Shown here: positions 8,391 to 24,877 of the stretch, piece after piece | How the letters are laid out: each line of letters opens with the position of its first letter | How positions within the stretch are numbered: position 1 is the stretch's first letter | Source: Clostridia bacterium | GTDB lineage: Bacteria; Bacillota; Clostridia; Oscillospirales; Acutalibacteraceae | Direction: 5' to 3' | Assembly (NCBI GenBank): GCA_017550105.1 | Contig: JAFYLQ010000021.1 | Span: forward strand, 1 to 43,636 | DNA: 43,636 bases | Position numbers and translations under genes: made by a program | Notes under the pieces: generated by a model | Databases searched by the model: none | Told to the model about the DNA's origin: nothing | What the model saw: only the letters and a program-made list of their open reading frames with translations

Positions 8391-9473
8391 ATGAAAAAGT
8401 TTTTATCGCTTCTTCTTGCGACGGTAATAATAATCACAAGTGCCGGTATGGTACTCGGTGCGAACTACAACGGCTTCGTTTACACCGCCAACGGTGACGG
8501 AACCTGCACCATAACAGGCTTCAACGATTTCCGTGCAGAGCTTGTGAACGTGCCCTCTGAAATAAACGGCTTAAAGGTAAGCGCCATCGGCAACGGCGCC
8601 TTCCAGACAAAAAACAATCTTCAGACCGTAAGAATTCCCGAAACCGTTACCTCCATCGGTTCAATGGCTTTTTACGGGTGCAAAAACCTCACCTCCGTTG
8701 TTATGGGCAATAACGTTAAATCCATCGGCGCCAAGGCTTTTAACTCCTGCACCTCACTTACTGAGGTAAACCTTAAAAATGCTGAGCTTTTGGGCGAATA
8801 CGCCTTCTACGGCTGTACATCACTTCAAAAGATTTTTATGGGTACCGCGCTTAAGGTAATCGGCAAAAATGCTTTCAACAAATGTGCCGTACTTACCGAA
8901 ATCAAAATGAGTGACACCCTGCTTTATATTGACGACTACGCCTTTGCAGGTGTGGGTGTAAGCACACTTAAATTCCCCGACACTCTTGGTTATATCGGCA
9001 ACAGCTCCTTCAAGGGCTGTAGCACACTTTCAAGCGTTACCTTCGGCACGGGTGAGCTTAAAATTGCAAGCTATGCCTTTGAGAACTGTGTTTCACTTAC
9101 GGAAATCACTATTCCCGAAAACGTAATCGAAATCGGCAGATGTGCCTTCGCATTACGTGAAACAGGCTCAAACGAGTTTTCACACAACATTAAAATCAAT
9201 TGCGGTATGACGGGCGGTGCCTTAATCTACGCTAAAATTCACGGCTTAACCGTCACCATAAACGGCACCGAGCAGAGTTTTGAAAACTTCGGAGATTACG
9301 ACGGTGACGGCTCTGTTACCACAAAAGACGCTCACGCTCTTTTACGTGCCGCCGCTTGTCTTATACCCTACCCCGACGAGGATACGGTTTTCTTATGCGA
9401 TATGGACGGCAACGGTATCATTGACACCTACGACGTAAAAATAGTCCTTAAAATTGCTTCGGGCTTAGTCTGA
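8391..9473 (+). CDS. Secreted BspA-type leucine-rich-repeat protein with C-terminal dockerin repeats
   Basis: The 360-residue product starts at the ATG at 8391, with GGAGG ten bases upstream; the longer in-frame reading from 8247 only translates repeats. A signal peptide (about 1-22) precedes roughly nine LRR_5 repeats with the pattern VTSIGxxAFxGCxxL (e.g. SIGSMAFYGCKNLTSV). These are typical of surface or secreted proteins that bind other proteins. The C-terminal 60 residues carry two dockerin-like calcium loops (DYDGDGSVTTKDA and DMDGNGIIDTYDV). Its last 9 bases overlap the phage amidase gene converging from the right, and no terminator is seen at that junction. It may be a host gene or cargo at the phage edge. 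Confidence 0.88.
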   Translation: MKKFLSLLLATVIIITSAGMVLGANYNGFVYTANGDGTCTITGFNDFRAELVNVPSEINGLKVSAIGNGAFQTKNNLQTVRIPETVTSIGSMAFYGCKNLTSVVMGNNVKSIGAKAFNSCTSLTEVNLKNAELLGEYAFYGCTSLQKIFMGTALKVIGKNAFNKCAVLTEIKMSDTLLYIDDYAFAGVGVSTLKFPDTLGYIGNSSFKGCSTLSSVTFGTGELKIASYAFENCVSLTEITIPENVIEIGRCAFALRETGSNEFSHNIKINCGMTGGALIYAKIHGLTVTINGTEQSFENFGDYDGDGSVTTKDAHALLRAAACLIPYPDEDTVFLCDMDGNGIIDTYDVKIVLKIASGLV

Positions 9474-10145
9474 TTTTCTGACTATGATGCCCTCGAAGCC
9501 CGCTTTCTTTAATTTATCAAGATGACTCTGTGCATTCTTTTTGGAGCTGAATGCACCTGTCTGAACAGTGTATAACGTCTTCGCTTCGGCGGAGGCGTTT
9601 GTTTTTTTATCTTCAGGAAGGCTCACGCCGTAATAATCGCAAACACCCTTGGCAATGGCTTCACCGATTCGGGTGGTGTTTTTAATAATAAAATCCGAGC
9701 CCTCCTTTGTATCGTGGAACTCTGCTTCAACGTAAACCGCAAGACCGCTTGTGGCTTTGCACTCGTAAAAATCAGGCTTTACAATAAGACGCTCGGCACT
9801 TTTGCCCGGTGTAAGGGGCGCAAGTCTGTTATAAACCGACTGACCCGCCTTCTTACGCTCATCCGAAAGGTCGTAAAGTAAAATCTGCGTACCACCCGTT
9901 ACGTTATGCTTTGCGGTAGCATTAGTGTGAATGGCAACGTGCATATCTGCTTTATAATCGTTACTCTCCCTCACCCTTTTGTACATATCGTCGTCATAAG
10001 TGCACTTGACTTCAAAACCCGCTTTCTTGAGATAATTCACACAAGCCTTTGCGATTTTGTGGCATTGCACTTTTTCATTTGTGTTCCCCGTAGCGTAAAG
10101 GTTGCCCTTCTGGTTACTCGGGGAAATATATATTCGTTTAGCCAA
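9465..10145 (-). CDS. Phage endolysin: N-acetylmuramoyl-L-alanine amidase (Amidase_3) with SPOR-like tail
   Basis: This enzyme cleaves the muramoyl-alanine bond for host lysis. The N-terminal domain (about 1-165) begins IYISPSNQKGN. It shows the Amidase_3 patterns VAIHTNA (zinc His), E in YVEAEFHDT, and GLAVYVE. Residues about 183-224 form a SPOR-like module (YTVQTGAFSSKKNA...LKKAGFEG). I place the start at the TTG at 10145 (226 residues). A GAGGAGG site lies 7 bases upstream, and the codon overlaps the end of the holin gene. It is the last gene of the phage operon. Its stop overlaps the LRR gene's stop on the other strand. Confidence 0.88.
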   Translation of the reverse strand: MAKRIYISPSNQKGNLYATGNTNEKVQCHKIAKACVNYLKKAGFEVKCTYDDDMYKRVRESNDYKADMHVAIHTNATAKHNVTGGTQILLYDLSDERKKAGQSVYNRLAPLTPGKSAERLIVKPDFYECKATSGLAVYVEAEFHDTKEGSDFIIKNTTRIGEAIAKGVCDYYGVSLPEDKKTNASAEAKTLYTVQTGAFSSKKNAQSHLDKLKKAGFEGIIVRKSD

Positions 10146-10419
10146 TAAAATCCTCCTCAAGAAATCTGATATCCGCATCACTATAATACGTCATTGCCCG
10201 TTCACTGTCACTGAAGCCCTCGGTGGTGGGGTCAACCACCACACCCGCAAGGGCAAGTACGTTGACACCCATACCTATAAGCTCTAAAAGCTCGTTTTCG
10301 CTTACGTCGGGAACAACACCGAATAGGCTCAGAGCCTTGTAAACAAGTGAAACAAGAAGCACCGACACACTGATTAAAAAGGTTTTATTTTTAAGCCTTG
10401 CTTTGATATTAAGCATCAT
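10138..10419 (-). CDS. Phage holin, phi-LC3/Phage_holin_1-like
   Basis: The 93-residue protein has an N-terminal RLKNKTFLISVSVLLVSLVY segment, a second hydrophobic stretch (GMGVNVLALAGVVVDPTTEG) and the family phrase VVDPTTEGFSDSERAMTY. These match small two-helix holins that open the membrane to release the amidase. A GGAGTGA site precedes the ATG at 10419. It lies between the small membrane protein and the amidase, the usual lysis order. Confidence 0.88.
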   Translation of the reverse strand: MMLNIKARLKNKTFLISVSVLLVSLVYKALSLFGVVPDVSENELLELIGMGVNVLALAGVVVDPTTEGFSDSERAMTYYSDADIRFLEEDFIG

Positions 10420-10425
10420 AAAAAA

Positions 10426-10728
10426 TCACTCCGTAATATTATTTTCCTTGGGCAATAATGAAACAAGCTCCTCGTATTTGTGCTTGATTTCACCGTTGCC
10501 ACCGTATTTTATATATTTTTCACCTGCGGCAATACGCTCCGACAGGGGCATTTCGTGGGACATAATTGTGAGTCTTTTAATGGAAAGGTAGTTATCGAGG
10601 GAATGCTCGTTGGTTTCCTCAATCCACCTTTCGCATTTACGTATGAATTTATAAACCTTAACAAAGGTTGCAATTATAATCCCAAGAGCCGTAAAAAGGG
10701 ACGCTATAAAAATTATGGTATTAGCCAT
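10426..10728 (-). CDS. Small phage membrane protein, second holin-like or lysis accessory
   Basis: The 100-residue protein starts at MANTIIFIASLFTALG with one N-terminal helix (about 3-24). A charged helical tail contains SIKRLTIMSHEMPLSERIAAG and an NGEIKHKYEEL end. I place the start at the ATG at 10728, with a GGGGAG site about 12 bases upstream. It overlaps the preceding gene's stop. Position next to holin and amidase suggests a lysis role; the exact activity is not known to me. Confidence 0.7.
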   Translation of the reverse strand: MANTIIFIASLFTALGIIIATFVKVYKFIRKCERWIEETNEHSLDNYLSIKRLTIMSHEMPLSERIAAGEKYIKYGGNGEIKHKYEELVSLLPKENNITE

Positions 10729-10975
10729 TTCCGTCACTCTCCCCGTAAGGGATTGAAGCCTTGACCTTTTCAACGAATTCAAAATACTCGTCGAACTCCT
10801 CGGGCTTCGTATCCCTCTGCCTTAAAATGGCAATTTCGTCATCAAGGGAGTATTTTTGCCTTATTGCCGATACAATCGCTTCCTTTCGGGTGGGGGCCTC
10901 ACAAAAGCCCTCTGCCTCAGAAAACTCCTCGGGTGTCATATCCCTGTATACGCCGTTTTCAAGCACCTTCATCAT
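10721..10975 (-). CDS. Small phage tail-associated protein (XkdX-like position)
   Basis: The 84-residue protein begins VLENGVYRDMTPEEFSEAE, a form common for small proteins encoded between tail-fibre and holin genes in Firmicute phages. It has a predicted charged helix and no membrane segment. Its ATG overlaps the fibre gene stop (ATGA), with a GGGGGGTG site. Function unknown. Confidence 0.7.
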   Translation of the reverse strand: MMKVLENGVYRDMTPEEFSEAEGFCEAPTRKEAIVSAIRQKYSLDDEIAILRQRDTKPEEFDEYFEFVEKVKASIPYGESDGNG

Positions 10976-12075
10976 TTACGCACCCCCCACAAGGTAATTG
11001 TCGTGCCCTCAACGAAGGTCTTTGCAGTACCCGTGGTAATAACGAATTTAAGACTGTTTATATTTACAGTTTGCCCCACAGGAACGGGCTGACCTACAAG
11101 ATTCGTAATATTATTATTCGGGAAATTAGTCGTACTCGCTATAGTACCGTTAGGAGCAACAAACAACCCACCGTTACCCTCGCCGTAGTTGTCGTAACGA
11201 CAATTCCATTTTCTTAGCGTATTAAGAAAGTAAGCATTCAATGCACCAATCATCATTGTGCCGCCCGCTTGTATGTAGAGCTTACCATTAGCGCCGTCCG
11301 TAAGACCAATAAGCACGTCGCAGTAAAAGTCCGTAAGCTCAAAGGGCTTGCCGTTACCATCCTTGGTAATTGAAATAGTGGTGGGTAAATTACCGTCCTC
11401 GTCCGCTTCGACCACCACGGTAGAAATCCGTTCAAACACCTTGGGTTTGCTCTCACCTGCTTGTTCAAGTGCCTCGCTAAAGGCATTCAATGCCTCATCC
11501 ATTGCCAAAGCACCGTACACCTGTTGGTTGGTGTGCTCCTCATCCACGGCAACCGTGTCAACAATTGTGATGTCGGGACCCTTTTCAGCCTCAACCAAAT
11601 CATAAACCGCCTTAGCACTTGGGTATTGGTCGTGGGTGGAGCTTTCGGTTATGGCAGATATTTTATTTAAAGCCTTTTCATGACCCTCCACCTTTTCAAG
11701 AAGGGCTGTTCCGAACTGATGACAGTATTTTTCATATTCACCTACGGTGGGGTTTTCCTCTACGGCAACCTCGTCAGTATACGAACCCTCGTTGACGTAA
11801 AACGCCGTGGGCTTGGGCGAATACATAAGTTCAACGCCCTGCACACTTTCTTTATAAGCATAAACGCCCAAAACAACCGTACCCTTCGGCAGGGTCGGGA
11901 TAATACACTCACCCTCCTTAACAGGCACGGGAATATTATTGAACGCCGCCGTAACCGTAAGGCTTTTAAATTCCTCGGGTAATTGAAGCTCACACAGGTT
12001 AACGCCTCTTTCCCCTGCATTCACAGGGGTATATTCGGTAATTATAACCGTATCCTTTGTTACTTTTACCTTCAT
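10972..12075 (-). CDS. Phage tail fibre or receptor-binding protein
   Basis: The 367-residue protein has a beta-rich N-terminal domain (VTKDTVIITEYTPVNAGERG and VTAAFNNIPVPVKEGE) as in upper-baseplate/fibre proteins. A short helical linker contains the SSTHDQYPSAKAVYDLV motif often seen in fibre stalks. The C-terminal domain is beta-rich and probably receptor-binding. It lies between the putative ejection protein and the lysis genes. The ATG at 12075 has a GGGGTG site. The receptor cannot be deduced. Confidence 0.72.
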   Translation of the reverse strand: MKVKVTKDTVIITEYTPVNAGERGVNLCELQLPEEFKSLTVTAAFNNIPVPVKEGECIIPTLPKGTVVLGVYAYKESVQGVELMYSPKPTAFYVNEGSYTDEVAVEENPTVGEYEKYCHQFGTALLEKVEGHEKALNKISAITESSTHDQYPSAKAVYDLVEAEKGPDITIVDTVAVDEEHTNQQVYGALAMDEALNAFSEALEQAGESKPKVFERISTVVVEADEDGNLPTTISITKDGNGKPFELTDFYCDVLIGLTDGANGKLYIQAGGTMMIGALNAYFLNTLRKWNCRYDNYGEGNGGLFVAPNGTIASTTNFPNNNITNLVGQPVPVGQTVNINSLKFVITTGTAKTFVEGTTITLWGVRK

Positions 12076-12079
12076 TCAA

Positions 12080-13282
12080 TCACCCCTTAGTATGCTTTTG
12101 ATATTTAGCCGCAAGGTATTCCTGATAGCTACCGTATGTGGCAGTAAGCTTTGATGAGCCGAATTCCTTTTCAGTAAGAATACTGTAATCACCCGTTCTT
12201 GTGCAGTATTCAGCGTAGGTTACAGGGGGCGTGGTAAGATTACTGTCGGAGGTCTTCGAGCTTTTCTTTGAAGAAGAGCCACCCGACGAGCCACCTGAGC
12301 CACCCGAGGATTTACGGGAATATTCCCTGTCCTTGTTTGCCTGGTCACGCTTTGCCTCGGACTCCTTAAAAGCCATTTCCTGCTGAAATTCCGCCCTGTC
12401 CTGAGCGTCCTGATATTTTTTGAATTCATAATCACGGTCACTTTCCCAAGCGTCAACCTCCGCAAGGAACTCGTCGAACTCCGCATCGGACATTGAGGTA
12501 AGCTTGTCAAGAAGGTACTCACCGTCCGCATAATAGCCCTCAAGCTCACCAAGGTATTTGTCGTAGGCGTCACCCTCAAGAGAGCGAAGCAGAGTCACGT
12601 CCTCAAGCATTTTGTCGCCCTTATCCGTATACTGAATGTAGGCTCTGTCACGTAAATCAAGTGCCACGTCGTTAAGACCGTTCAGGTACTCGTCGTAAGC
12701 CTCGTTACCTGCCGTCACGGCGTAGGAGTTGGCGTAACCACCCGTAAGTGCCGTGGCGTTGCCCACCGTGTCCATCATAGCCTTTTTGCCGTTCTGAGCG
12801 TACTGCTCACGGTACTGCTGATAAAGTGGGTCCGCATTAAGACTGTATGAAAAATCCTCACGGTTGAGAATGTCGTTAAGAAGGCTCTCAATCTCGTCGG
12901 AATATTTGCTTTCGTATTCCTTGGGCTTTCTTTTCTCCCAATTGTCAAGCTCCGCCTCTGCCGACTGCACCGCCTGACTTTTTTCATATTCAGGTCTTGG
13001 CTCGGTGGTCTTTTTGGTAGTGGTTGTTGCAGTTGTTTTACTGCCCGAGCTTTTCGAAGTCGTGGTCTTTGACGTGAGACTGCCCCATGTATTTTTACCC
13101 ACAATACCGTCCACCTGAAGCCCGTTTTTCTTCTGATAATCCTTTACGGCAGCCTGAGTTTTGGCACCGAACTGACCGTCAACTGCAAGTGAATAGCCGT
13201 TGGCATTTAATACCTCCTGCAATTTTTTAACGTCGGCACCCGACGAACCGTAAGAAACAGTTGAATAAGCTATTTTTATCAC
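12080..13282 (-). CDS. Virion protein with N-terminal peptidoglycan-binding domain (candidate ejection/internal protein)
   Basis: Residues about 8-70 are a PG_binding_1 domain (GADVKKLQEVLNANGYSLAV, AVKDYQKKNGLQVDG). A Ser/Thr/Lys-rich linker (70-95) follows. A long charged helical region (about 100-345) contains ALTGGYANSYA and many Tyr/Asp-rich repeats, and the low-complexity tail is Ser/Gly/Lys-rich. No catalytic motif is seen. In a short-tailed phage without a tape-measure protein, a wall-binding internal or ejection protein is a reasonable guess. The start is uncertain: the GTG at 13282 overlaps the GAGGTG that looks like the ribosome site, so an ATA codon at 13273 is also possible. Confidence 0.65.
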   Translation of the reverse strand: MIKIAYSTVSYGSSGADVKKLQEVLNANGYSLAVDGQFGAKTQAAVKDYQKKNGLQVDGIVGKNTWGSLTSKTTTSKSSGSKTTATTTTKKTTEPRPEYEKSQAVQSAEAELDNWEKRKPKEYESKYSDEIESLLNDILNREDFSYSLNADPLYQQYREQYAQNGKKAMMDTVGNATALTGGYANSYAVTAGNEAYDEYLNGLNDVALDLRDRAYIQYTDKGDKMLEDVTLLRSLEGDAYDKYLGELEGYYADGEYLLDKLTSMSDAEFDEFLAEVDAWESDRDYEFKKYQDAQDRAEFQQEMAFKESEAKRDQANKDREYSRKSSGGSGGSSGGSSSKKSSKTSDSNLTTPPVTYAEYCTRTGDYSILTEKEFGSSKLTATYGSYQEYLAAKYQKHTKG

Positions 13283-13294
13283 CTCTTTAAATTA

Positions 13295-15055
13295 TTAACA
13301 TATATAGCATCCGCTAAGGTAAATTTGTGTACCTGCGGAAATTGTGTTTTCGGGACGGACGACAATCTCGCCCGTATTCTGAATGCCCCCTAAAGCCTTT
13401 ACATCCGATGAAAAGTGCACCACGCATTGCAGGGGTGTAAAAAATGCAGGAGCCTTACCCGTAGCACCTGCCACAACGTGGCTTGTATTTGCCGAAAGCT
13501 CTGTAGCCGTCTCAAGGCGAAGCCCGAGCCACACCATTTTCAAGGGTGGAATATGCTTTGCGGTGCAAAGAAGATTTTTTGCCTTATCGGTGGTTTCCAC
13601 ACTCAGGTCATCGAAGTTAAGCTCACCGCCCACACTAAGGCTTCCCTGAATATCCACGTCCCAAGCAACGGAAAGCTCGTTCTCATTTTCGGCAAATTTG
13701 CCGAAGGCAGCACCATTACCACCACGGCGTATATTAAAAGGAATATGAGCAACACCAACGGAACGGATAAACTCAACGTAGTCCTCGCAAATTTCATCAA
13801 TAGCCCTGACTCTCACCTCGTAGGATGAGCTTTCCTCAATATCACCGCCGAAAATAACGGGTGATGAGTTCACGTAAACGTCCCCGTAGTAGCTCTCGTC
13901 GGGAGCTCTATAACCCACCATTACCTCGTAGGTGTTTTTAGAATTAAGGTCACTGTAGTTAAAATCGTAATGCATAATCAGGTATTTGCCCTGATTGTTC
14001 AGGGTGCCGTCCACATCGCACCGCTCAATGCTTTTAATATTAACGTCGGGCTTTTGGTAATCGCACACCGTTATGGTTTTAGTTTTTTTAACCGCAAAGC
14101 CACGACTGTCCTTAAGGGTAACACTCACGGTGAGCACACCGCTTTCAGTAATTTCAAAGGTGGCGGGGGCACTTCTTTTTGAAACGCTACCAAGGGTAAT
14201 GCTCACGCTCTGAAGCGTGGCGCCGTATTTAAAGGTCACGTCACTCAAATCCACCTTCAACTGACTGACACCCTTTATGTATTCGTCAATGCCCGTTGAA
14301 ACACCCTTATTAATACGCTCCAAGGCAATACCGAATTGGGGTGTAAAATCGGCACTTGCAGGCATTGTAAATGGAATGCTTTTGGTGACGGAGCCTATCT
14401 GCACGCCCTTGTTGTAGGTTTTAAGAGTTATTTTCAGGCTACCCTTGGCAGAGGTGGTAACCTGCTCAGCCCAATTAACAGGGATTTTAAGCGTGTATTC
14501 ACTCGCACCCGCACCCATATCCGTACTTGCACTCGCATTCCCCACACTCCAGATAAGTCTGTGGGTAAAGGTCTCGGAATTTGACTCAACACTCACCTTA
14601 AGGCTACCCTCGGGACTGATACTTGAAGCCGAAAGGCTAAGCCCCGAAGCCCTCGGTATGGCAGTACACTTAAATTCACAGGTAACGCTACCACCCGTAA
14701 GATTGGTGCTACCGATGGTGAACTCACCCTTAACGGGAAGGCTCAGTGTACCGTCCGAATTATGTGTGACGTTGCCCGTCCATTGAGCAAGGGTCACGGT
14801 AGCGCCGTTTCTTGTGTCTATGGCAAGCTTTTTGTTCACCTTAACGCTACCGCCCACCGTAAGCCTTGCGGTGTTAGAGTCCTCCGAAAGGTTGTATGCG
14901 GAGGCCGAATAACCGTCGTTTCGTTTAAGCAGAAGCCTTGCGGTTACGTTGCTCGTATTACCGCTTACGTTCTGTGAATTCTGCGAAAGTGCAATCCACA
15001 AATCATATTTACTGCCCGAAGCACCCGAGCATTTGCCATAATAATTAATTCCCAT
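13295..15055 (-). CDS. Phage tail protein, DUF859-like
   Basis: The 586-residue beta-rich protein begins with a GINYYGKCSGASGSKYDLWI module and a VTHNSDGTLSLPVKG segment, followed by repeated Ig-like strands. This resembles the streptococcal-type phage structural family DUF859. The C terminus (about 470-586) looks like a small host-recognition domain. The ATG at 15055 overlaps the previous gene's end and has a GAGGTGG site. It probably forms part of the tail tip or fibre. Family call moderate, function inferred from position. Confidence 0.75.
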   Translation of the reverse strand: MGINYYGKCSGASGSKYDLWIALSQNSQNVSGNTSNVTARLLLKRNDGYSASAYNLSEDSNTARLTVGGSVKVNKKLAIDTRNGATVTLAQWTGNVTHNSDGTLSLPVKGEFTIGSTNLTGGSVTCEFKCTAIPRASGLSLSASSISPEGSLKVSVESNSETFTHRLIWSVGNASASTDMGAGASEYTLKIPVNWAEQVTTSAKGSLKITLKTYNKGVQIGSVTKSIPFTMPASADFTPQFGIALERINKGVSTGIDEYIKGVSQLKVDLSDVTFKYGATLQSVSITLGSVSKRSAPATFEITESGVLTVSVTLKDSRGFAVKKTKTITVCDYQKPDVNIKSIERCDVDGTLNNQGKYLIMHYDFNYSDLNSKNTYEVMVGYRAPDESYYGDVYVNSSPVIFGGDIEESSSYEVRVRAIDEICEDYVEFIRSVGVAHIPFNIRRGGNGAAFGKFAENENELSVAWDVDIQGSLSVGGELNFDDLSVETTDKAKNLLCTAKHIPPLKMVWLGLRLETATELSANTSHVVAGATGKAPAFFTPLQCVVHFSSDVKALGGIQNTGEIVVRPENTISAGTQIYLSGCYIC

Positions 15056-17757: not shown

Positions 17758-18127
17758 AAATATCCCCTGCCTTTATCTCCGCTTGCCTGAGCACCGCCTG
17801 ATTTCTGTTTATGTAATTATTCAAATCCCTGTACGTGTTATTAAAAAGCAATGCCGAGTTATTGAAACGGGCTATTTCCCCATTCATATAATCAAGCTTC
17901 ATATTAAGATACGTGGAATAAATCTCGCTGAATTCATCGGGGGCCTTAAGAACCGTGTCAAGGGGAGTTGAAATATCGTAGCCTTTAAAAGCAACGTCCC
18001 CTCTCGGCACAGTAATCTCCGAGCTGATTTTGTAATCCAACTGTGAAAGCCAACGTATTTTTTTAGCCACGTCAACAGAGTTACTACGCTCGGAATCAAA
18101 AATCTCAATTGCATCTCTCAGTGTCAT
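17750..18127 (-). CDS. Candidate head-tail adaptor protein
   Basis: The 125-residue mostly helical protein (MTLRDAIEIFDSERSNSVD... and YMNGEIARFNNSALLFNN) is encoded directly between capsid-proximal genes and the hub. That is where podoviruses place their adaptor (P22 gp4 position). I see no diagnostic motif. An AGGTGGGG site precedes the ATG at 18127. The role is inferred from gene order. Confidence 0.65.
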   Translation of the reverse strand: MTLRDAIEIFDSERSNSVDVAKKIRWLSQLDYKISSEITVPRGDVAFKGYDISTPLDTVLKAPDEFSEIYSTYLNMKLDYMNGEIARFNNSALLFNNTYRDLNNYINRNQAVLRQAEIKAGDIYV

Positions 18128-18138
18128 ATAACCCCACC

Positions 18139-18351
18139 TTAAAGAGAGATATTTGCATCAATATACGCCGCCGAAACCGCCGCCATATTCTCACTGTTTT
18201 TAATTACCTCCGCAAAGCGCTCGGGAATTTCAACGGTCTTACCCGTCTGAACGAGTATACGCTCACCGTTCACCGCAACGAAACGCTCCGTATCATTTCT
18301 TGATGTTTTGGGAATAAAAACGCTCACAAGCTTTTCCTTAGTATTTGCCAT
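18139..18351 (-). CDS. Small phage head-associated protein of unknown function
   Basis: The 70-residue protein has the pattern VFIPKTSRND, FVAVNGERILVQTG and VEIPERFAEVI, which I associate with small conserved proteins next to capsid genes in Clostridia phages. It could be a capsid decoration or head-completion protein. A GGAG site precedes the ATG at 18351. Confidence 0.7.
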   Translation of the reverse strand: MANTKEKLVSVFIPKTSRNDTERFVAVNGERILVQTGKTVEIPERFAEVIKNSENMAAVSAAYIDANISL

Positions 18352-18374
18352 TTATATACACTCCTTTTTTGTGC

Positions 18375-18396
18375 GGGGCACCCTTTCGGGCACCCC
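18375..18396 (-). promoter_or_regulatory. GNRA-capped hairpin after the capsid gene
   Basis: In the minus-strand RNA, GGGGUGCCC and GGGUGCCCC form a nine-pair stem (two G-U wobbles) capped by GAAA, a stable GNRA tetraloop. No U run follows, so it is unlikely to be a terminator. It sits 20 bases after the capsid stop codon and is well placed to stabilise the capsid message. Confidence 0.6.
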
Positions 18397-18415
18397 TTGA
18401 ATATTAAAAATTAAA

Positions 18416-19429
18416 TCAGTTAGCCTTAGCGGTAGCACTGAATGCGGAACCGCTTTCGATTCTGATAAGGTATTCCTCAACAAGTCTTTTGGCAGTCTTA
18501 AGACCCTTCCAGCCGATTGAGGAGCGCTGATTAAGGGGGTCGTTGCCGTAGCCCTTCTGCTTAACGATGTGTTCAATACCGCCACCGTTGACACTTGTAA
18601 CACCGTAGGCATCGGCACCCATAATAAGGGTTGCAAACACGGCACAGCCGCCTGCACCCTCGTTCCAGATTTTAGCCTCGGTGCTTTCTACAAAACGAAC
18701 ACCGCCGAGGCAACCAATTTCACCCTTAAGCATATTTTCGGGAGAGGCATATTTCTGCACCTCCATCCACTGATTACCCGCCTCCTGCATAAGGTCGTAG
18801 GCAACGTAGGGGTGAATAATGCCCACGTAGTAGCCGTCGATTTTGGGGGCATTCATAGCCTTAAGCTCTGCCGCCGCCTTAAAAACGTCCTTAACGCGAA
18901 GAAGTGCGGTTTTATCAATGGCACCACGTGATGTAACTGCAGCCTCGGTGCCGTCCGCAGAAACCTTGGGGCAATAAAGCACGTTTGTACCGCCCACGAT
19001 TTCGTTTCTTACAATTGTGTCCATAGTAAGACCCGCCTGTGAAGCCAACTGCTTTGTAGCCTCAACAATGGTGTTGTCAACTGCAGTAAGCTCAAGAAGG
19101 TCGGTCTGCTCAATGTAGTCACCGTACTGCTCAACTGTGGCGCTAACGCTTGAAACGTTAAGCTTGTTGCCCGTGGGTGTTACGCCCTCTGTAAGGGGTG
19201 TAAGCGCCTTGGGAAGTGATGAGAACCTACGGAACTCAATAATCTTACCGCCGTTTTTGGGAATATCACGCTTCTGACCGAACTGGTCGTGAACAAGGTA
19301 GGGTGAAGCGAGGGTAATAAGAGTCTTGTCATAAAAGGTTTTCATTTCCGCAGAAAGTGATTCGGAGGTAGTTTTGTTCACCTCGTCACCTGCGGCAAAA
19401 AGCTGAATATTAAAAATATAGTCTGTCAT
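18416..19429 (-). CDS. Major capsid protein, N4-gp56 family
   Basis: The 337-residue protein has the family phrases SAEMKTFYDKTLI, VHDQFGQKRDIPKNGG, LTEGVTPTG and EQYGDYIEQTDLLELTAVDN. These fit the N4-gp56-type major capsid protein (HK97 fold). Its N terminus, MTDYIFNIQLFAAGDE, resembles the cleavable leader of ribosomal protein L27 in Firmicutes (NLQFF/A). The same motif is in the scaffold, and a Prp-type protease is encoded just upstream. An AAGGAA ribosome site precedes the ATG at 19429. A stable hairpin follows the gene. Confidence 0.9.
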   Translation of the reverse strand: MTDYIFNIQLFAAGDEVNKTTSESLSAEMKTFYDKTLITLASPYLVHDQFGQKRDIPKNGGKIIEFRRFSSLPKALTPLTEGVTPTGNKLNVSSVSATVEQYGDYIEQTDLLELTAVDNTIVEATKQLASQAGLTMDTIVRNEIVGGTNVLYCPKVSADGTEAAVTSRGAIDKTALLRVKDVFKAAAELKAMNAPKIDGYYVGIIHPYVAYDLMQEAGNQWMEVQKYASPENMLKGEIGCLGGVRFVESTEAKIWNEGAGGCAVFATLIMGADAYGVTSVNGGGIEHIVKQKGYGNDPLNQRSSIGWKGLKTAKRLVEEYLIRIESGSAFSATAKAN

Positions 19430-19450
19430 AAAAATTCCTTTCCGATGGTG

Positions 19451-20200
19451 CTAAAAGGAGATACTTGCACCATTCTCAACCTGTTTTAAAATTTTAAGAA
19501 TATCCTGTGAGGTCAGGGAATTAACGTCAACAGAGGTAACAACCGCACTTTCGGAGGAAACGCCGTTTTCAAGGGGACGTCTGCCCTTGGCTTCGATGCC
19601 CTTTACAACCTGCTCACGAACTCTGTCGGCGGTGTAAGCCATAGCACCCGAAAGAATTTCATCCTTGTGCACCGTCTCATAAGCGGCTTTTAAGGGAGCA
19701 CCACCCAAAAGAAGCTGAGAAAACAGCTTACTTCCACGAAGCTCATTTCTTAAATCAAAGTCGGGATACGTATTTTTCACCTCGTCGCTTTGTTTAATCC
19801 AATCACTGATTCTGCCCCTGAGTGTGCTAACCCTTTGCGCCTTCGTCACCCTTTCGGTCTGTTCAATCGGCTTTTCAATAAAATCAATAAGAGTATTTTC
19901 ATTACCGCTTTCAACTCCGTATTTTTTCAATAGTGACTCCACAAGGGGTGAAACACGCTCCTTGTACTCCTCAAGCTCCTTAGTCTGTTTAAACCTTTTG
20001 TCGATAATTGCCTGTGTCTTTTTCGTAAACTGCTCCTTGAATTTACCGCTTATTAATTGGTTAAATTCATCGTCAGTGCTTACGATTTCGGCACCTGACT
20101 GCCCGGCGACGGCATTTTCACCGCCCGATTCCCCGTTTACCGCTTCCGTGCCCTCACCTGCAAAAAGCTGCAAATCGGGAGTGTACCATAATTTTTTCAT
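19451..20200 (-). CDS. Phage scaffold protein (GP20/DUF4355-like)
   Basis: The 249-residue protein is acidic at first (20-50) and then strongly helical (QLISGKFKEQFTKKTQAIID, KRFKQTKELEEYKERVSPL). It ends in a Glu/Lys-poor tail, as scaffolds encoded before capsid genes usually do. The N terminus KLWYTPDLQLFAGEGTE carries the L27-like DLQLF/A motif. A double AAGGAAAGGAA ribosome site precedes the ATG at 20200. It should guide capsid assembly and be removed before packaging. Confidence 0.82.
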   Translation of the reverse strand: MKKLWYTPDLQLFAGEGTEAVNGESGGENAVAGQSGAEIVSTDDEFNQLISGKFKEQFTKKTQAIIDKRFKQTKELEEYKERVSPLVESLLKKYGVESGNENTLIDFIEKPIEQTERVTKAQRVSTLRGRISDWIKQSDEVKNTYPDFDLRNELRGSKLFSQLLLGGAPLKAAYETVHKDEILSGAMAYTADRVREQVVKGIEAKGRRPLENGVSSESAVVTSVDVNSLTSQDILKILKQVENGASISF

Positions 20201-20293
20201 TTTGTTTTCCTTTCCTTTAGAAAATGTTTATCCATCGTCTTTCCGAAGTGTCATTAAGATATATCTTTATATAAAACCCAAAGGGTTTATTAA
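20201..20293 (-). other. 93-base gap between Prp-like and scaffold genes with small palindromes
   Basis: The gap holds AAACCC/GGGTTT (20274-20288), followed on the minus strand by TTTTATATAAAG, and the palindrome AAGATATATCTT (about 20256-20267). It is the longest non-coding gap inside the structural operon, so a weak attenuator or internal start for scaffold and capsid is possible. No convincing promoter is seen. Confidence 0.4.
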
Positions 20294-20614
20294 CTATTCC
20301 ATTACCACGTAGTCGGGGTAGCTTTCCGCCAGCATCATAAAGCCCGTTAAAAAGGCATCAATAATCCCCTCGGTACGCTCCTTTGAAAAATCAAACTTTT
20401 CGATTTCAAAGTAGGCATAGCCGTCACGGACAATATTACGGTGAAGCCTTAGTCTGCCGAGGCTCTCCTCGTCAAGGACGGAGTTTATAAGTGCACCCAC
20501 AAGGGTGGATATCCCTGCACAAACCACGTCCTTACCCGAGGTGGCAAAGCCACTGTGACCCTCAACACTCAGAAGTATTTTTCCGTAGTATTCTCTGTAG
20601 CAAACCCGTGTCAA
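20294..20614 (-). CDS. Phage-encoded Prp-type cysteine protease
   Basis: The 106-residue protein resembles Prp/YsxB, the protease that trims the N terminus of ribosomal protein L27 in Firmicutes. The catalytic pair is visible as H20 in VEGHSGFA and C32 in GKDVVCAGIS, with the 12-residue spacing of the family. Its start is the TTG at 20614, overlapping the portal stop (TTGA), with a GGAGGG site 8 bases upstream. Located between portal and scaffold, it probably processes the scaffold and capsid, both of which carry L27-like leaders. It might also act on host L27. Confidence 0.88.
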   Translation of the reverse strand: MTRVCYREYYGKILLSVEGHSGFATSGKDVVCAGISTLVGALINSVLDEESLGRLRLHRNIVRDGYAYFEIEKFDFSKERTEGIIDAFLTGFMMLAESYPDYVVME

Positions 20615-22263
20615 AGCCTAATCCCTCCGCCACTGAGCTTAGCCGCAAGGGCTTCCTTACCCTCAAAATCCATCATACTTATGGCAATAAGTGCCTGTTG
20701 ACGAAGCTCGGGATTAAACATACCCGCGTTATATAACTGTAATGCAAGCTCGTTCTGACTGATTTTTGAAAAGGGACTTGCCTTTTCGGCGCTTACCTTA
20801 ATATCAAACACGGGCTTTCTTGAGCCCAACTCAATACCGAAGGTGCTACCCTGATTTTTAAGTCTGATGGCGGAATTATCATAGGAAATAAATTCCTGCT
20901 CACCGTTCTCCCCAAGGATTCTGAAAAATCTCGGCTCATCGTAAAATTGACGTATAAGCTCCACCGCAAGATTATTAAGCTCTGAAAAGGCTCTGTAGCC
21001 GCCCTTAACCATATCACGGGTAAGCTTACTGCCCGCCTCCTGCAATGCGGCAATAGCCGATGCGGCGGTAACACCGCTTGAAACACCGCCCTGTGAAAAA
21101 TCACGGTTACCGCTTGTTTCCTTAAGCTCGTCGATTTTACTGTTGAGAATACCTAAATAAATTTCGGGAATGCCCGACATACGGATTTCCCTGATACTGT
21201 CCTCACCAAGGTTGCTACCTGAAACGTGAACGAAATTATTGCTCCAGTCCGCAAACTCCTCCTCGTTAACAGCACCCGAGGAATTAATAAAATATCGGGG
21301 ATTTGTTGCCATGGTGGCATTCTTTACAAGGGCGTTGCCAAGTAAATCAATCTGCTTCTGAGCGTCCTTCATAATGTCGATGTAGCCGAAGCCACAGGGT
21401 GTGCCCTCCTCAACAAATAGGGAGTCAAAAACAAAGGGATACTGACCGTGGTCGTAAAAACCCCTGTCCGCATATTCGGGGTCGTTTTCCGAGGCATACA
21501 AAAGCTCGTTGTTGCAAATTTTACAGTAATGCACCGTCTCAACACCGTTTTTAATGACCTTGTAATAGCGGTCAATAACCGCACTTTTTTCCGAGGTATC
21601 AATATTGTCGTCGAATACGTATTTTGCAATCTCTACAGATGACGAGCCAAGCTTACCCTCAAGCTGAGGATAAAGACCGCACAAGGTGTCGTTATCCGTA
21701 AGCTCCACGTGGAATATATTTTTACTTTTCTGAACGTCCTTGATACCGGGCTCCCAGAAAAGATTAAGCACGTCCACCTGCCTGATTTCAACGTCGCCCA
21801 AGCCGTTATTCTTCAAGGGATTCCAGAAGATACCGTAAACGGCTGTACCCGCCTTAAGCTTGTACCACCATGCGTCGCTATAGATTTTCTCAAAGCCGTT
21901 ACGCTCAAAAACCACGGGCAGAATCTGTGAAAGAACCCTTGCGGCATTCTCGTCACTTTTCTCACGGGGCAGGCAGGTAACCGTCGGGTAATTATCCATA
22001 GCGTCCGCATGCTTGTTGGCAATTGAGTTAAAAAGCCACGCCGATGCATTTTTATCACCCTTGTCACCCCTTAACTGCTCCCAATGTCGCATTTTAAACC
22101 ACTGCTCATTGTCAACAATTCTGTTTTCGAGGGCGGTTTTGCCCTCCTTGTATTTTTTAAGAATGCCTAAAGCCTTCTCAACCTCATCCTTGCCGATAAC
22201 ACCCCTTGTACCGATTGCCTCGACAGGCTTCACCTTTTCATAAGTCTTTTTATTTTTCTTCAT
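20611..22263 (-). CDS. Phage portal protein
   Basis: The 550-residue protein follows the large terminase. It shows portal-like phrases: ENRIVDNEQWFKMRHWEQLR, DVEIRQVDVLNLFWEPGI, DIMKDAQKQIDLLGNALVKN and GVTAASAIAALQEAGSK. The last of these is the long helical region that lines the DNA channel in portals. A TAAGGAG overlapping the terminase stop serves as ribosome site. It forms the dodecameric DNA entry ring. No truncation is evident. Confidence 0.88.
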   Translation of the reverse strand: MKKNKKTYEKVKPVEAIGTRGVIGKDEVEKALGILKKYKEGKTALENRIVDNEQWFKMRHWEQLRGDKGDKNASAWLFNSIANKHADAMDNYPTVTCLPREKSDENAARVLSQILPVVFERNGFEKIYSDAWWYKLKAGTAVYGIFWNPLKNNGLGDVEIRQVDVLNLFWEPGIKDVQKSKNIFHVELTDNDTLCGLYPQLEGKLGSSSVEIAKYVFDDNIDTSEKSAVIDRYYKVIKNGVETVHYCKICNNELLYASENDPEYADRGFYDHGQYPFVFDSLFVEEGTPCGFGYIDIMKDAQKQIDLLGNALVKNATMATNPRYFINSSGAVNEEEFADWSNNFVHVSGSNLGEDSIREIRMSGIPEIYLGILNSKIDELKETSGNRDFSQGGVSSGVTAASAIAALQEAGSKLTRDMVKGGYRAFSELNNLAVELIRQFYDEPRFFRILGENGEQEFISYDNSAIRLKNQGSTFGIELGSRKPVFDIKVSAEKASPFSKISQNELALQLYNAGMFNPELRQQALIAISMMDFEGKEALAAKLSGGGIRL

Positions 22264-22272
22264 ATTTTCTCC

Positions 22273-23646
22273 TTAAATAGTCCTGTAGCGCCCCTTATTC
22301 AGGTCAAGTGGGTCGTCACCAAGGACTGCATTTTTCTTTTTATAAGTGGGTGCAATGGGTCTTGCCATACACATATATCTGACCTCGTCCGCAACGTGGT
22401 CCTCGCCCGTGGTGTCAAGGTCCTCGGGATTTGTGTTACTGAATTTAAGCTCGGGCACAGTTCTTATAAACCCCTTGCAGGTGTTAAACACATACATCAT
22501 CGGTATGCCGTTATCATCAAAGCTTAATCTGTAATGAACCTGCATCCAACCGGGAAGACGCTTGTTGTCACCCTTGGTAAAATAAATGCCGTTTCTGACG
22601 GCGGCTTCAATAATGGCTTCACCCCTTGAGGCATCCCATATTGAAGGGTCCGCAACCCCCTGAATATGCTTGTTTTTTAACCATCGGTGGGTGCTTTCAA
22701 TTTCTGCAATCTCCGAAAATATTTTCTCGGGCGGCCACTTAACACCCTCGTTGGGTGACTTGGTACAGCCGTAAAGCTCAAGTATGCGGTAAAGTCTGCC
22801 ATCGTAGTCCACCGCCCACCAGGCGCACGAAAAGGGCTTTGCATAGCCGAAGTCAAAGGAACGGTATATGAGCCAATCACTCGGTATTTCAAAGGGCTCA
22901 ATAACGTGTGTAAAGGTGCCCTCCCTGTAATTATCGGGCACGTCGCGGAATTCCTCAAAAAACTGACCGTCAAAAATATCCCAATTACCAAAGCGGTGAG
23001 CCTGACGGAGTTTTTCGGGAAGTGAATCAAGCACCTTAACGTACTCGGGATTGGTTTTCATAAGCACCGTGTTATCATCAATGGTAGCGGGTATGAATAC
23101 GTAATCCTCAGGGTCCTCACCCGCCTCGTAGCGCCCCTTTACAAAAAGACGCTTAAACCAGTTGTGACCCACGCCACCGGGGTTCCCCGTAAAGTACATA
23201 CGGGGCTTAAAATCCTCACGGGTGGTACGGTTACAGGTCATCAGAAACTGAATCTGCGTAAAGGTGAAATGGGTGCATTCCTCAACCCCTATTACGTCGT
23301 ACTCCTGACCCTGATACTGATAAATATCGTTTTCCGTGTCGCAGTAGCCAAGGCGGATTCGTGAGCCGTTCGGGAAAATGAACGCCCTTTCGTCACGCTT
23401 GTACCGTGCAATGCCGTTAAGAAGTGACAATAGGGGTAAAAGGTGATTTTCACGAAGCTCGGGCAAGGTCTTACGAAGCAGAAGCAATTTAAGACCGCTG
23501 TATTGAAGGGCAAGAAGCACGAATTTCGTTCTTAAAGCCCAAGACTTACCGCCGCCTCTGGCACCCCCGTAGCCGATAAATCTTTTTGTGCTTTCGAAGA
23601 ATTCTTTTTGCTTTTCATTTGGGGGTGAAATAACAAGCTCCTTCAT
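22273..23646 (-). CDS. Phage terminase large subunit
   Basis: This DNA-packaging ATPase/nuclease (457 residues) has Walker A YGGARGGGKSWALR near the N terminus and Walker B DVIGVEECTHF, followed by a coupling motif FTGNPGG. The RNase-H-like nuclease domain keeps its acidic residues in RSFDFGYAKPF, GVADPSIWD and EDHVADEVRYM. I place the start at the ATG at 23646, overlapping the small-terminase stop (ATGA) with a GTGGAG site, rather than the GTG at 23655. All catalytic motifs look intact. Confidence 0.93.
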   Translation of the reverse strand: MKELVISPPNEKQKEFFESTKRFIGYGGARGGGKSWALRTKFVLLALQYSGLKLLLLRKTLPELRENHLLPLLSLLNGIARYKRDERAFIFPNGSRIRLGYCDTENDIYQYQGQEYDVIGVEECTHFTFTQIQFLMTCNRTTREDFKPRMYFTGNPGGVGHNWFKRLFVKGRYEAGEDPEDYVFIPATIDDNTVLMKTNPEYVKVLDSLPEKLRQAHRFGNWDIFDGQFFEEFRDVPDNYREGTFTHVIEPFEIPSDWLIYRSFDFGYAKPFSCAWWAVDYDGRLYRILELYGCTKSPNEGVKWPPEKIFSEIAEIESTHRWLKNKHIQGVADPSIWDASRGEAIIEAAVRNGIYFTKGDNKRLPGWMQVHYRLSFDDNGIPMMYVFNTCKGFIRTVPELKFSNTNPEDLDTTGEDHVADEVRYMCMARPIAPTYKKKNAVLGDDPLDLNKGRYRTI

Positions 23647-23909
23647 CGGCTCCACTCCTGAAGTTGTTTTTCAAGCTTTATAATTACGCCCTCCGAAGCC
23701 TGTGCCGTACCATCGCAATTTTCAAGTAAATCATAAAGTTCCCTCAATGCACTTACGCTTTCCTTCAGAAATTTAGCGTCAATTTTGGCTTCGCCCGTAG
23801 CCTTAAAATTCTTACGGGCACGTTTGATAATATCGTCAATAAGTGCGCTCATATTGTTGGTTGCCGATGAAACTCGTTTGTATTTATCGTCAGTCTTTTT
23901 TTCTCTCAA
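23643..23909 (-). CDS. Putative phage terminase small subunit
   Basis: The 88-residue helical protein (SATNNMSALIDDIIKRARKN, AKFLKESVSALRELYDLLEN) lies directly upstream of the large terminase, the usual place of the DNA-recognition subunit. I place the start at the TTG at 23909. It overlaps the previous stop as TTGA and has AAAGGGG 8 bases upstream; longer in-frame readings would overlap that gene more deeply. It is shorter than typical small terminases, so the assignment rests mainly on position. Confidence 0.68.
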   Translation of the reverse strand: MREKKTDDKYKRVSSATNNMSALIDDIIKRARKNFKATGEAKIDAKFLKESVSALRELYDLLENCDGTAQASEGVIIKLEKQLQEWSR

Positions 23910-24133
23910 GACTTTAAGCCCCTTTCGTAAAGAATGGAAAGATTTCGGTAATGACTGCATTTTCTCCCGCCCGAGGTACAACAAACCGACTCCTCGTAAT
24001 TTCTTTTTAAAAAATTACTTGTGAATTTGTGCAAGCACTCGGTGTCCTTCAGAACGCCCTCGCAGGCAATAAAGCCGTCGCCCTCTTCAATATAAAAAGG
24101 ACAGTCAATTCTTCCTTCAATTAATTTTGACAT
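23906..24133 (-). CDS. Small cysteine-rich, probably zinc-binding phage protein
   Basis: The 75-residue protein contains IDCPFYIEEGDGFIACEG, TECLHKF, SVCCTSGGRKCSHY. Spaced Cys/His pairs suggest one or two zinc sites. It is the first gene of the structural operon, ahead of the terminase genes, where similar small CPFY proteins occur in Firmicute prophages. It may be a transcription or packaging factor. The AGGAGG ribosome site overlaps a CTGTAC half-operator. Confidence 0.72.
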   Translation of the reverse strand: MSKLIEGRIDCPFYIEEGDGFIACEGVLKDTECLHKFTSNFLKRNYEESVCCTSGGRKCSHYRNLSILYERGLKS

Positions 24134-24147
24134 TTTTCTTGTACCTC

Positions 24148-24254
24148 CTGTACTATTATTGGTATTGACATTAATATGAAAATGGTTTATATTATTCCTG
24201 TAAGTTGTACAGATTTCCGAACCGCAATTCTATTATAGTACAGGTTTCTGTACT
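24148..24254. promoter_or_regulatory. Repressor operators in the divergent phage control region
   Basis: The main site is a perfect inverted repeat, AGTACAG (24237-24243), GTTT, CTGTACT (24248-24254). It fills the spacer between the -35 and -10 of the structural promoter. A second palindrome, CTGTA-N5-TACAG (24198-24212), lies at the predicted start of the repressor transcript. A single CTGTACT half-site at 24148-24154 overlaps the ribosome site of the first structural gene. These are likely binding sites of the adjacent Cro/CI-type protein. Confidence 0.72.
24165..24193 (+). promoter_or_regulatory. Promoter of the repressor gene
   Basis: TTGACA (24165-24170), a 17-base spacer and TATATT (24188-24193) predict a start near 24200, inside the CTGTA-N5-TACAG palindrome. 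This suggests autoregulation. Confidence 0.8.
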
Positions 24255-24260
24255 TTTCAA
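24232..24260 (-). promoter_or_regulatory. Promoter of the phage structural operon
   Basis: On the minus strand, TTGAAA (24260-24255), a 17-base spacer and consensus TATAAT (24237-24232) point to the terminase-to-amidase genes. The main operator occupies the whole spacer, so bound repressor would block RNA polymerase. Confidence 0.8.
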
Positions 24261-24329
24261 CCTCAAAAACAAACATTTGTTCGTTTTGCAAATATTTGTA
24301 ACTTTGCACAAAAACAGGGGGCTTCCATT

Positions 24330-24665
24330 GTGAATATGTATGAAAAAATCATAGGATTATGTAACGAAAAGGGCATAAAGGTGGCAGGCTTGTGCAAGGC
24401 AACGGGCATTCCCAAGAGTACGCTATCCGAATTAAAGCAGGGCAGAACCAAAACCTTATCCACTCAGACTCTCAGCAAAATAGCCCAGTACTTTAACGTA
24501 TCACTGGGGTACTTTGACGAAAACTTTGACCCTGTTGAGGAAGTCCGTGACGAACTTTTTGAAAAACGAAAACTGCTTTTTGATATGTCAAAACGAGCAA
24601 CCGAGGACCAGCTTGACACGTTTTTAGTAATGTTTCAGGCGTTAATAGATAAGGAGAACGAATAA
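24330..24665 (+). CDS. Cro/CI-type HTH repressor
   Basis: The 111-residue protein has an N-terminal XRE helix-turn-helix (about 3-60): VAGLCKATGIPKSTLSELKQ, then TLSKIAQYFNVSLGYF. A short helical C-terminal part probably dimerises. It lacks a peptidase domain. The GTG start at 24330 follows an AGGGGG site. It is divergent from the structural operon and flanked by the operators described here. It probably holds that operon silent and, with the ImmA-like protein encoded 5 bases downstream, forms an immunity switch. Confidence 0.88.
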   Translation: MNMYEKIIGLCNEKGIKVAGLCKATGIPKSTLSELKQGRTKTLSTQTLSKIAQYFNVSLGYFDENFDPVEEVRDELFEKRKLLFDMSKRATEDQLDTFLVMFQALIDKENE

Positions 24666-24670
24666 GCCGA

Positions 24671-24877
24671 ATGAGCCGTATTGTAAGACAAATAAAAATG
24701 CCGCTGACCATCAGGGCGTTTACCCTACCCGATGCCAACGGCGACTTTAATATTTATATTAACCAAGACTTATCCGACGAGGCTAAGCGTAAATCCCTCG
24801 CCCACGAATACCTCCACATTGAAAACAACGATTTTCAAAAAAACGAATTCGCAAGAATTATTGAAAAAGACGGCTGA
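24671..24877 (+). CDS. Mini ImmA/IrrE-like HExxH metallopeptidase
   Basis: The 68-residue protein has TIRAFTLPDANGDFNIYINQ followed by LAHEYLHIENNDF, whose HExxH is the zinc-peptidase signature of ImmA/IrrE proteins. Full-length members are about 130-200 residues, so this is a minimal form, also seen as stand-alone small proteins. It lies 5 bases after the repressor gene and could inactivate the repressor upon induction, as ImmA does with ImmR in ICEBs1. Activity of such a short form is uncertain. The ribosome site GGAG is about 13 bases upstream. Confidence 0.72.
   Translation: MSRIVRQIKMPLTIRAFTLPDANGDFNIYINQDLSDEAKRKSLAHEYLHIENNDFQKNEFARIIEKDG

Follow-up and report, generated by a model that had tools for sequence, protein, structure and literature searches.

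Gene transfer agents (GTAs) are usually credited with a load of 5–15 kb of DNA (PMC9632790). According to the available text of the respective reports, the GTA of Rhodobacter capsulatus (RcGTA) has a small terminase subunit (TerS) that lacks a DNA-binding domain and binds DNA non-specifically (PMC6854486), and the TerS of FpGTA, described from Faecalibacterium in 2026, has no obvious DNA-binding domain either (PMC12946183). Operon I of FpGTA was present in all 12 of the 12 Faecalibacterium genomes examined by its authors. From virion reads, the same report describes DNA packaging of a GTA-like kind in Oscillospiraceae and Ruminococcaceae of the gut, naming a gene cluster, in its available text, only for Faecalibacterium (PMC12946183), and it was the one work naming a GTA-like cluster in Clostridia found in the literature searched. 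Among the open-access papers listed by the searches, none described the genus studied here or a podovirus-type GTA that occupies one locus and has a repressor of its own; preprints and most subscription papers were outside that scope. Here we describe a locus at positions 9465–24877 of a 43,636-nucleotide contig (JAFYLQ010000021.1; the entire contig G000:C24, hereafter the window) from a Clostridia bacterium of the Acutalibacteraceae (GCA_017550105.1; 66 contigs, 84% complete). The locus is probably a domesticated podovirus late module that is kept by its host genus and works like a gene transfer agent. Handles beginning with G and L denote the genomes and loci compared.

The podovirus-type module is intact and covers packaging, head, short tail and lysis, and a repressor/mini-ImmA pair lies divergently beside it. 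The original prediction, made from the sequence letters, had described 18 minus-strand genes encoding this complete set without a stop, and the open reading frame (ORF) calls across 9465–24133, together with assignment of the window proteins with Pfam and PHROGs, bear this out. Its statement that the genes mostly overlap was a little strong, as 9 of the 17 gene junctions (longest-start ORFs) overlap and 8 are gapped by 4–93 bases. Beyond the late operon lie, divergently as it had stated, a cI-like repressor gene (24330–24665, plus strand) and then a mini-ImmA gene (24671–24877, plus strand). The GC content of the locus resembles that of its flanks.

On the minus strand, the operon begins with a small cysteine-rich protein, g75 (23906–24133; 17 copies listed), followed by g113 (23643–23909), the large terminase subunit (TerL, 22273–23655; PF04466, phrog_979 at 2e-49) and a P22-like portal (20611–22263; PF16510 at 2.4e-29, phrog_156 at 1.3e-80). 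Next come a Prp-type cysteine protease (20294–20614; PF04327 at 3.3e-14), a probable scaffolding protein placed by its position and carrying a QLF/A motif (19451–20200; phrog_13908, of unknown function, at 2.6e-47) and the major capsid protein (MCP, 18416–19429; phrog_1357 at 4.7e-85, PF25209), which has an N-terminal QLF/A motif of the Prp type. Adjoining the MCP is a small protein, g70 (18139–18351; phrog_15239), with dN/dS of 0.00–0.08 where measurable, then g125, by position a possible connector (17750–18127; phrog_12105, of unknown function), and g585, whose C-terminal part resembles an internal virion protein (16000–17757; phrog_511 at 1.2e-55). The tail genes include the tail-fibre-like g320 (15045–16007; phrog_588 at 4e-9), the DUF859 tail protein g586 (13295–15055; PF05895 at 5.2e-27, phrog_372 tail protein at 1.8e-63), g400, a possible tail or ejection protein with a peptidoglycan-binding domain (12080–13282; PF01471 at 1.1e-20), and g367 (10972–12075), whose position and variability suggest a variable tail fibre and which matches over 33–49% of its length where found in relatives. 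The operon ends with the small protein g84 (10721–10975), found besides the window only in G009 among the compared loci, g118 (10426–10782), a small protein adjoining the lysis genes with matches in part of the genus, a holin (10138–10419; PF04531 at 2.8e-17, phrog_297) and an endolysin, an N-acetylmuramoyl-L-alanine amidase with a SPOR domain (9465–10181; PF01520 at 6.6e-18, PF05036 at 2.7e-7, phrog_435 endolysin). Five proteins (g118, g84, g367, g113 and g75) had no family match in Pfam or PHROGs. Catalytic motifs, said earlier to be intact, are present in the protease (His/Cys motif GHSGFATSGKDVVCA) and in TerL, whose five motifs are identical across the eight genus members compared except for I/V and T/V in the last one. 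We take the TerL motifs to be Walker A/B-like and nuclease-like. Searches against solved structures returned nothing useful for g113, g585 and TerL, and weak matches of the MCP and portal to phage capsid and portal chains. The MCPs of G003, G002 and G004 (L129, L136 and L139) are 424–426 amino acids (aa) long, around 90 residues more than the usual 336, hence an insertion comes and goes within the family.

No integrase, primase or helicase was detected among the 19 flanking genes, all of which were scanned against Pfam, nor was an integrase or replication gene present inside the locus; the flanks are chromosomal, as had been claimed, and encode transporters, MFS, an LRR-dockerin protein, YdjC, an acyltransferase, a peptidase, oxidoreductases and similar (one of the 19 without a family). 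The whole genome has a single tyrosine recombinase match, on a different contig, and the absence of an integrase refers to the locus and the 19 flanking genes, serine recombinases not having been searched genome-wide. Comparison of the left end (181 bases) with the right end (371 bases) for att-like direct repeats gave a longest repeat of 8 bases, equalled in 113 of 200 shuffles and therefore at chance level. The larger att-bounded element with an adjoining integrase module, which the original prediction had named as counter-evidence, was accordingly not found, and the locus lacks the integrase and att sites of a functional temperate prophage, while the two control prophages of G018 (G018b and G018c) do have an integrase. 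Intergenic 7-base tandem-repeat arrays, with a varying unit and constant period, occur in the window at 131–169, 5366–5397, 8230–8371, 24899–24929, 34200–34299, 36616–36693, 37714–37796 and 43565–43611, the one at 24899–24929 lying directly past the mini-ImmA gene.

The locus is widespread in the genus. TerL matches were detected in 17 of 22 genus genomes (10 of the 11 high-quality ones), and an MCP search added G008 and G013, giving TerL or MCP in 19 of 22. The 14 other full-length TerL copies are 81–95% identical, and in G002 and G004 TerL is split across two contigs at 66–78% identity. A single TerL match was present in 13 of the 17 TerL-bearing genomes; G018 has two further copies, both in prophages (84 and 61%), and G003 a weak second match (31%). 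Matching records are titled uncultured Oscillospiraceae, Ruminococcaceae, Clostridia or Firmicutes and, where a source is given (several give none), come from the gut of water deer, roe deer, cattle, yak, goat and sheep. A 10-kb IMG/VR “virus” (L024, IMGVR_UViG_3300018475_004811) has an MCP 98% identical to that of the window and shares the short TerS candidate of the G009 locus, hence such loci have been filed as viral contigs.

The chromosomal position of the locus is stable over long spans, with a few moves. Across the 13 loci with cI-immA, a YdjC gene lies to the left in 10, an LRR-dockerin gene to the right in 8 and both in 5, and at least one of these neighbours is present in 13 of 13, in line with the fixed site that the original prediction proposed to look for in related genomes. 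G005, G016 and G010 have a different right flank that is common to the three (15 of 15 ORFs shared between G005 and G016), the nine right-flank ORFs of G003 match none of these, and G014 and G020 have other left flanks.

Inheritance was largely vertical. We compared a species tree from AlaRS, GroEL and RpoB (22, 19 and 13 genomes) with a locus tree from 12 cluster proteins in 18 genomes, and their patristic distances were closely correlated (Mantel r = 0.95, with 0 of 2000 permutations as high). Eight of 15 splits were identical, and of the seven that differed, four were fully supported (100%) by the locus tree and two by the species tree. Purifying selection, the other check proposed, was evident wherever dS was measurable: Nei–Gojobori dN/dS in nine species pairs was 0.00–0.37 in every such cluster comparison, many being saturated, and in the G000–G009 pair 17 of 20 genes were measurable at 0.00–0.14, with three saturated. 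As dS often exceeded 1 these values are rough, but none is near 1. TerL and the portal were among the best conserved genes and g367 and g586 diverged fastest. The locus thus combines intact phage-derived head, packaging, tail and lysis genes, the lack of integration and replication genes, and vertical inheritance under purifying selection, apart from two relocations and a single strong but shallow disagreement between the trees. That it is domesticated and kept by its host genus is well supported, and the candidacy as a domesticated, GTA-like element originally put forward is strengthened by the shared site, low dN/dS and congruent trees.

Control of the operon appears conserved as well. The regulatory region that separates cI from the divergent late operon (24134–24329) is conserved in blocks in 13 species, in which the gap between cI and g75 is 182–231 bases. 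It contains a predicted sigma-70-type late promoter, TTGAAA-17-TATAAT (24232–24260, minus strand), which is matched at 12 of 12 bases in 10 of the 13 species, at 11 in two and at 10 in one. A palindromic operator, GTAC-N8-GTAC, lies in the promoter spacer (operator 1, 24238–24253), and a second copy follows 31–32 bases on, 31 in the window (operator 2, GTTCGGAAATCTGTAC, 24207–24222, minus strand); under a strict pattern nine species have two copies and four have one. The combined promoter–operator pattern occurs once in the window, with 0 expected. A possible repressor promoter, TTGACA-17-TATATT, was seen by eye at 24165–24193 (plus strand), and a LexA-like box, CGAACAAATGTTTG, lies at 24270–24283 (minus strand). 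A similar box occurs upstream of lexA in the genus: among 19 of the 20 lexA loci (G021 omitted) the best match was CAAACAAATGTTTG in 7 and AGAAAATTTGTTCG in 9, a related core, with modest single-genome support (0–17 of 200 shuffles in 18 of the 19 genomes, G002 omitted). The cI-like repressor has only a helix-turn-helix (HTH) domain (PF13443, HTH_26, at 3e-13; phrog_8), and neither an S24 peptidase nor another autocleavage domain was found among its family matches, while mini-ImmA is an M78 metallopeptidase that keeps its HEYLH motif (PF06114 at 1.6e-5). In G004 and G002 (L138/L135) a response-regulator-like gene, identified by eye, lies directly before g75 and cI-immA was not found, so control has possibly been replaced.

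A candidate small terminase without an HTH is encoded by g113, which has about 88 residues and a conserved core and lies immediately before TerL. It aligned with other short TerS by hhalign at a probability of 94% (E 2e-7). An HTH profile for TerS, trained on 8 loci and run on the 1.2 kb before TerL in 87, gave 26 hits: all 8 loci of the training set scored, as did 18 of the 65 others from outside the genus, and none of the 14 genus loci did; the profile is blind to Terminase_2 and some other TerS types, hence absence alone proves little. TerS lengths are rough, since extraction took g75 or over-long starts in some rows. Loci with TerL too near an end were omitted from the extraction and from the profile run. 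By analogy with RcGTA and FpGTA, the short TerS candidate may make packaging non-selective here. QLF/A or a one-letter variant (QFF/A, QCF/A) begins the MCP in 18 of the 18 genus copies listed, and most scaffolds have QLF or QFF followed by A, S or G, those of G003, G002 and G004 being exceptions and the start not being seen in G008. In phage 80alpha, the host enzyme Prp cleaves at a site of this kind, according to the available text of that report (PMC9405229).

Phage relatives of the locus persist as prophages. Alongside the locus, G018 carries two prophages from the same phage group, both cut short by a contig end: G018b, with Phage_integrase, an S24 repressor, a PcfJ-like gene, a Terminase_2 TerS and a 2854-aa protein, and G018c, with Phage_integrase, a 3657-aa polyvalent protein and a 175-aa TerS that has no Pfam match and in which an HTH was recognised by eye. 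None of these integrases, the S24 repressor, the Terminase_2 or HTH TerS or the giant proteins is present in the locus. On the contigs concerned (G018:C12, L130/L131, and G018:C23, L133/L134), the 2854-aa protein has a PBECR3 match and the 3657-aa protein PBECR5 and ART-PolyVal matches. In a FastTree portal tree (109 portals, those of up to 450 aa and identical ones being dropped) the genus loci, including G002 and G004, form one clade beside the G018b portal; the TerL tree agrees, and in the MCP tree G018b is unresolved near the base. Together with the G018 prophages, the portal and TerL trees suggest that the locus is the same module minus its mobile parts. Both prophages share the order TerL–portal–Prp–scaffold–MCP–g70–g125–g585 and homologous proteins with the locus, and differ in keeping an integrase, early genes, a longer TerS and giant polyvalent proteins. 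Giant ORFs were seen directly only in G018b and G018c, and their comparison between HTH and short-TerS loci was uninformative because flanks end about 10 kb past the MCP. Among IMG/VR relatives, 20 of the 80 kept (140 found) were on contigs of 39–45 kb, the likely genome size, and the MCPs of Bacillus phages Page and poppyseed (39,874 bases) are 36% identical.

Several observations weigh against a GTA-like role, which is predicted from genes and sequence comparison. The LexA-like box at the locus is a motif only. Its consensus, GAACNNNNGTTC, is perfect in 9 of the 13 species and one base off in 4, including the window, where two matches occur at up to one mismatch (0.18 expected), the second at 37536, off the locus. 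Strict CGAACN4GTTCG occurs once in G009, at the locus, three times in G018, one at the locus, once in G000, elsewhere, and not in G016, and the reversed control pattern, with 8, 0, 3 and 2 copies in G000, G009, G018 and G016, is equal or commoner in three of these four genomes. As a basis for calling g113 a TerS, its hhalign match to the C-terminal half of full-length TerS is weak (probability 65%, E 6e-5), and the HTH profile likewise gave no hit in 47 of the 65 test loci from outside the genus, some of them with another TerS type. Intactness has exceptions, with the prp motif lost in G003, an in-frame g320/g586 fusion in G018 and shortened genes in G012. Absences, gene losses and a remnant show that the locus is dispensable: TerL and MCP had no match in G001 or G006 (the latter 82% complete, its site not seen), the G018 locus has a tail-gene deletion, prp is missing in G012 and G008, where host Prp could substitute, and G015 retains just the end of g400, part of g367, the holin and the amidase beside the usual left neighbours, its head genes gone. 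An ordinary defective prophage, i.e. a late module left in slow decay after loss of the early region, would explain the G015 remnant, the G018 and G012 deletions and the failure to find the locus in G001. It is nonetheless the least probable explanation we considered, as ORFs remain intact at low dN/dS across species with near-saturated synonymous sites, the promoter and operators are conserved and the tree is congruent, in agreement with the earlier argument that intact genes speak against random decay. The locus has also moved. In G012 the cluster lies beside ribosomal protein genes (L1/L10/L7–L12, by eye) and the usual site is empty, a relocation probably shared by its sister G008, which has no cluster gene within 1.9 kb past its YdjC gene; no cI was seen in G012, and the contig of G008, beginning within the portal gene, gives no view of cI. 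In G002 and G004 the cluster occupies a third position, common to both, where a response-regulator gene adjoins g75. The locus tree places G009 with G000 and the species tree places it with G014, each at 100% support, the sole conflict fully supported on both sides, hence some exchange between close species is likely. Scattered insertion, which the original prediction held would count against domestication, was not found, but the two relocations, the G015 remnant, the failure to find the locus in G001 and G006 and this conflict qualify that result.

Moreover, the window MCP is 90% identical to that of the G018b prophage and contigs of relatives cluster at 40–44 kb, thus the head may hold the whole locus, unlike that of RcGTA. 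A self-mobile mini-phage, whose particles are large enough for the 15-kb locus and spread it through recombination in the recipient, would fit this capsid similarity to a full-size prophage, the moves in G012 and in G002 and G004, and the tree conflict; it is improbable, since the gene tree follows the species tree overall, making spread between species rare, and the locus ends have no att-like repeats. We give a similarly small chance to a capsid donor or interference element linked to prophages of its own group that reside in the host, G018b being an example. G018 does have both the locus and two related prophages, with MCP and TerL close to those of G018b, but 13 of the 17 TerL-bearing genomes have a single TerL match, and neither a donor nor a parasite needs a full lysis cassette and switch. 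The main rival, which we regard as unlikely though less so than these, is a killer particle resembling PBSX, in which DNA-filled phage-like particles kill relatives without delivering genes and selection acts through competition. PBSX is under SOS control. Rapid divergence of g367 and g586 is as expected of a specificity determinant, the lysis genes are intact, and PBSX itself is a Gram-positive precedent reported as bacteriocin-like, in the available text of that source (PMC7667829). That TerL and the portal are among the best conserved genes suggests that DNA packaging itself is under selection, and no dedicated immunity gene is apparent, but this carries little weight because PBSX packages DNA too. 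The tests agree poorly with random decay or an ordinary active prophage, and GTA-like function is the best account.

The locus is best read as a host-maintained, probably SOS-linked, GTA-like element. cI and the two operators would keep the late promoter off, and the LexA-like box would link the switch to DNA damage, making such induction likely. On release, the operon would make scaffold, capsid, portal and short tail, and Prp would trim capsid and scaffold at the QLF/A motif observed in both. With no HTH in its small-subunit candidate, the terminase would be largely indifferent to sequence when loading DNA, and holin and amidase would then let particles out. Particle production and the packaging and transfer of host DNA would follow from this scheme, the domestication itself being well supported. 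Host bacteria may then make particles that move their own DNA between cells, and the locus would point to loss of DNA recognition by TerS as a step by which a phage could become a carrier of genes.

Similar clusters occur more widely. Relatives of the MCP turned up in 40 of 398 family genomes and 21 of 135 genera, and short TerS candidates, assigned by eye against the HTH class with the profile run as a check, in several portal-tree clades (L399–L402/L408, L176/L177, L186/L188, L190/L198/L200 and kin, L215/L223/L271, L404/L405/L407 and L197/L228). Neighbour ORFs are shared between species for L399/L402, L404/L407 (both sides), L405 (one side), L198/L200, L271/L220, L271/L215 and L176/L177, and none were shared for L401, L413, L406 and L223; the neighbours were judged to be host genes, by eye, only for L404 and L399 and elsewhere could be phage genes. 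Six HTH prophage loci, one without a testable flank, shared one ORF (L192/L195, 61%). This suggests repeated domestication in related genera, most such loci being seen in two or three genomes. The compact short-TerS clusters L399, L402, L404, L405, L407, L198, L200, L271, L220, L176 and L177 may be further GTA-like elements. L225, in a metagenome-assembled genome named Candidatus Treponema caballi, has the same gene order and an HTH-type TerS, reflecting either a spirochaete host or misbinning. It is possible, though we hold this only tentatively, that a gut podovirus group was converted into GTA-like elements on several independent occasions in Oscillospiraceae and related Clostridia, each time losing the TerS HTH and staying at a fixed chromosomal site, the genus of the window having a complete single-locus, SOS-linked form whose full-size head may carry 35–42 kb of host DNA. 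Such a load per particle would exceed the usual GTA load and suffice for the element's own genes.

Among known systems, PBSX of Bacillus subtilis resembles the locus in being a host-maintained defective prophage of a Gram-positive bacterium; as far as the available text of its report goes, it packages chromosomal DNA and does not transfer it (PMC7667829), the likeness being drawn without a gene-by-gene comparison. RcGTA shares a structural cluster of about 15 kb and, if g113 is the TerS here, a TerS without a DNA-binding domain (PMC6854486), and vertical inheritance is reported for its homologues (PMC11841831), again from available text, as found at the locus. Unlike RcGTA, the locus has a P22-like portal, phage relatives with contigs of 40–44 kb, a Clostridia host and a phage-type repressor with a LexA-like box. 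FpGTA, the closest described system, likewise comes from gut Clostridia and has podovirus-type head genes, with TerL, portal, scaffold, MCP and a TerS like the g113 candidate (PMC12946183). Identity of a ten-ORF cluster of similar layout (L399, G783) with FpGTA operon I was considered and was not supported. None of 17 adjoining 20-kb stretches, nor either of two distant ones, had a match to a cluster protein of the window. In the G783 stretches, the only matches to seven fibre/lysis queries were M23 and GH25, in L455, GC was 59–63% in 12 of 19 (range 47–63), and Rfam on five returned two tRNAs and a T-box. Compared by its description, in the available text, FpGTA differs in having two loci about 125 kb apart (strain APC918/95b), with ten ORFs in operon I and lysis genes in operon II, whereas the locus reported here is single and includes holin, amidase and a cI/ImmA switch. 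It looks like a domestication separate from FpGTA and provides a second, complete, genus-wide GTA candidate among related gut bacteria; one of the genomes also carries prophages from its phage group, which serve as a natural control.

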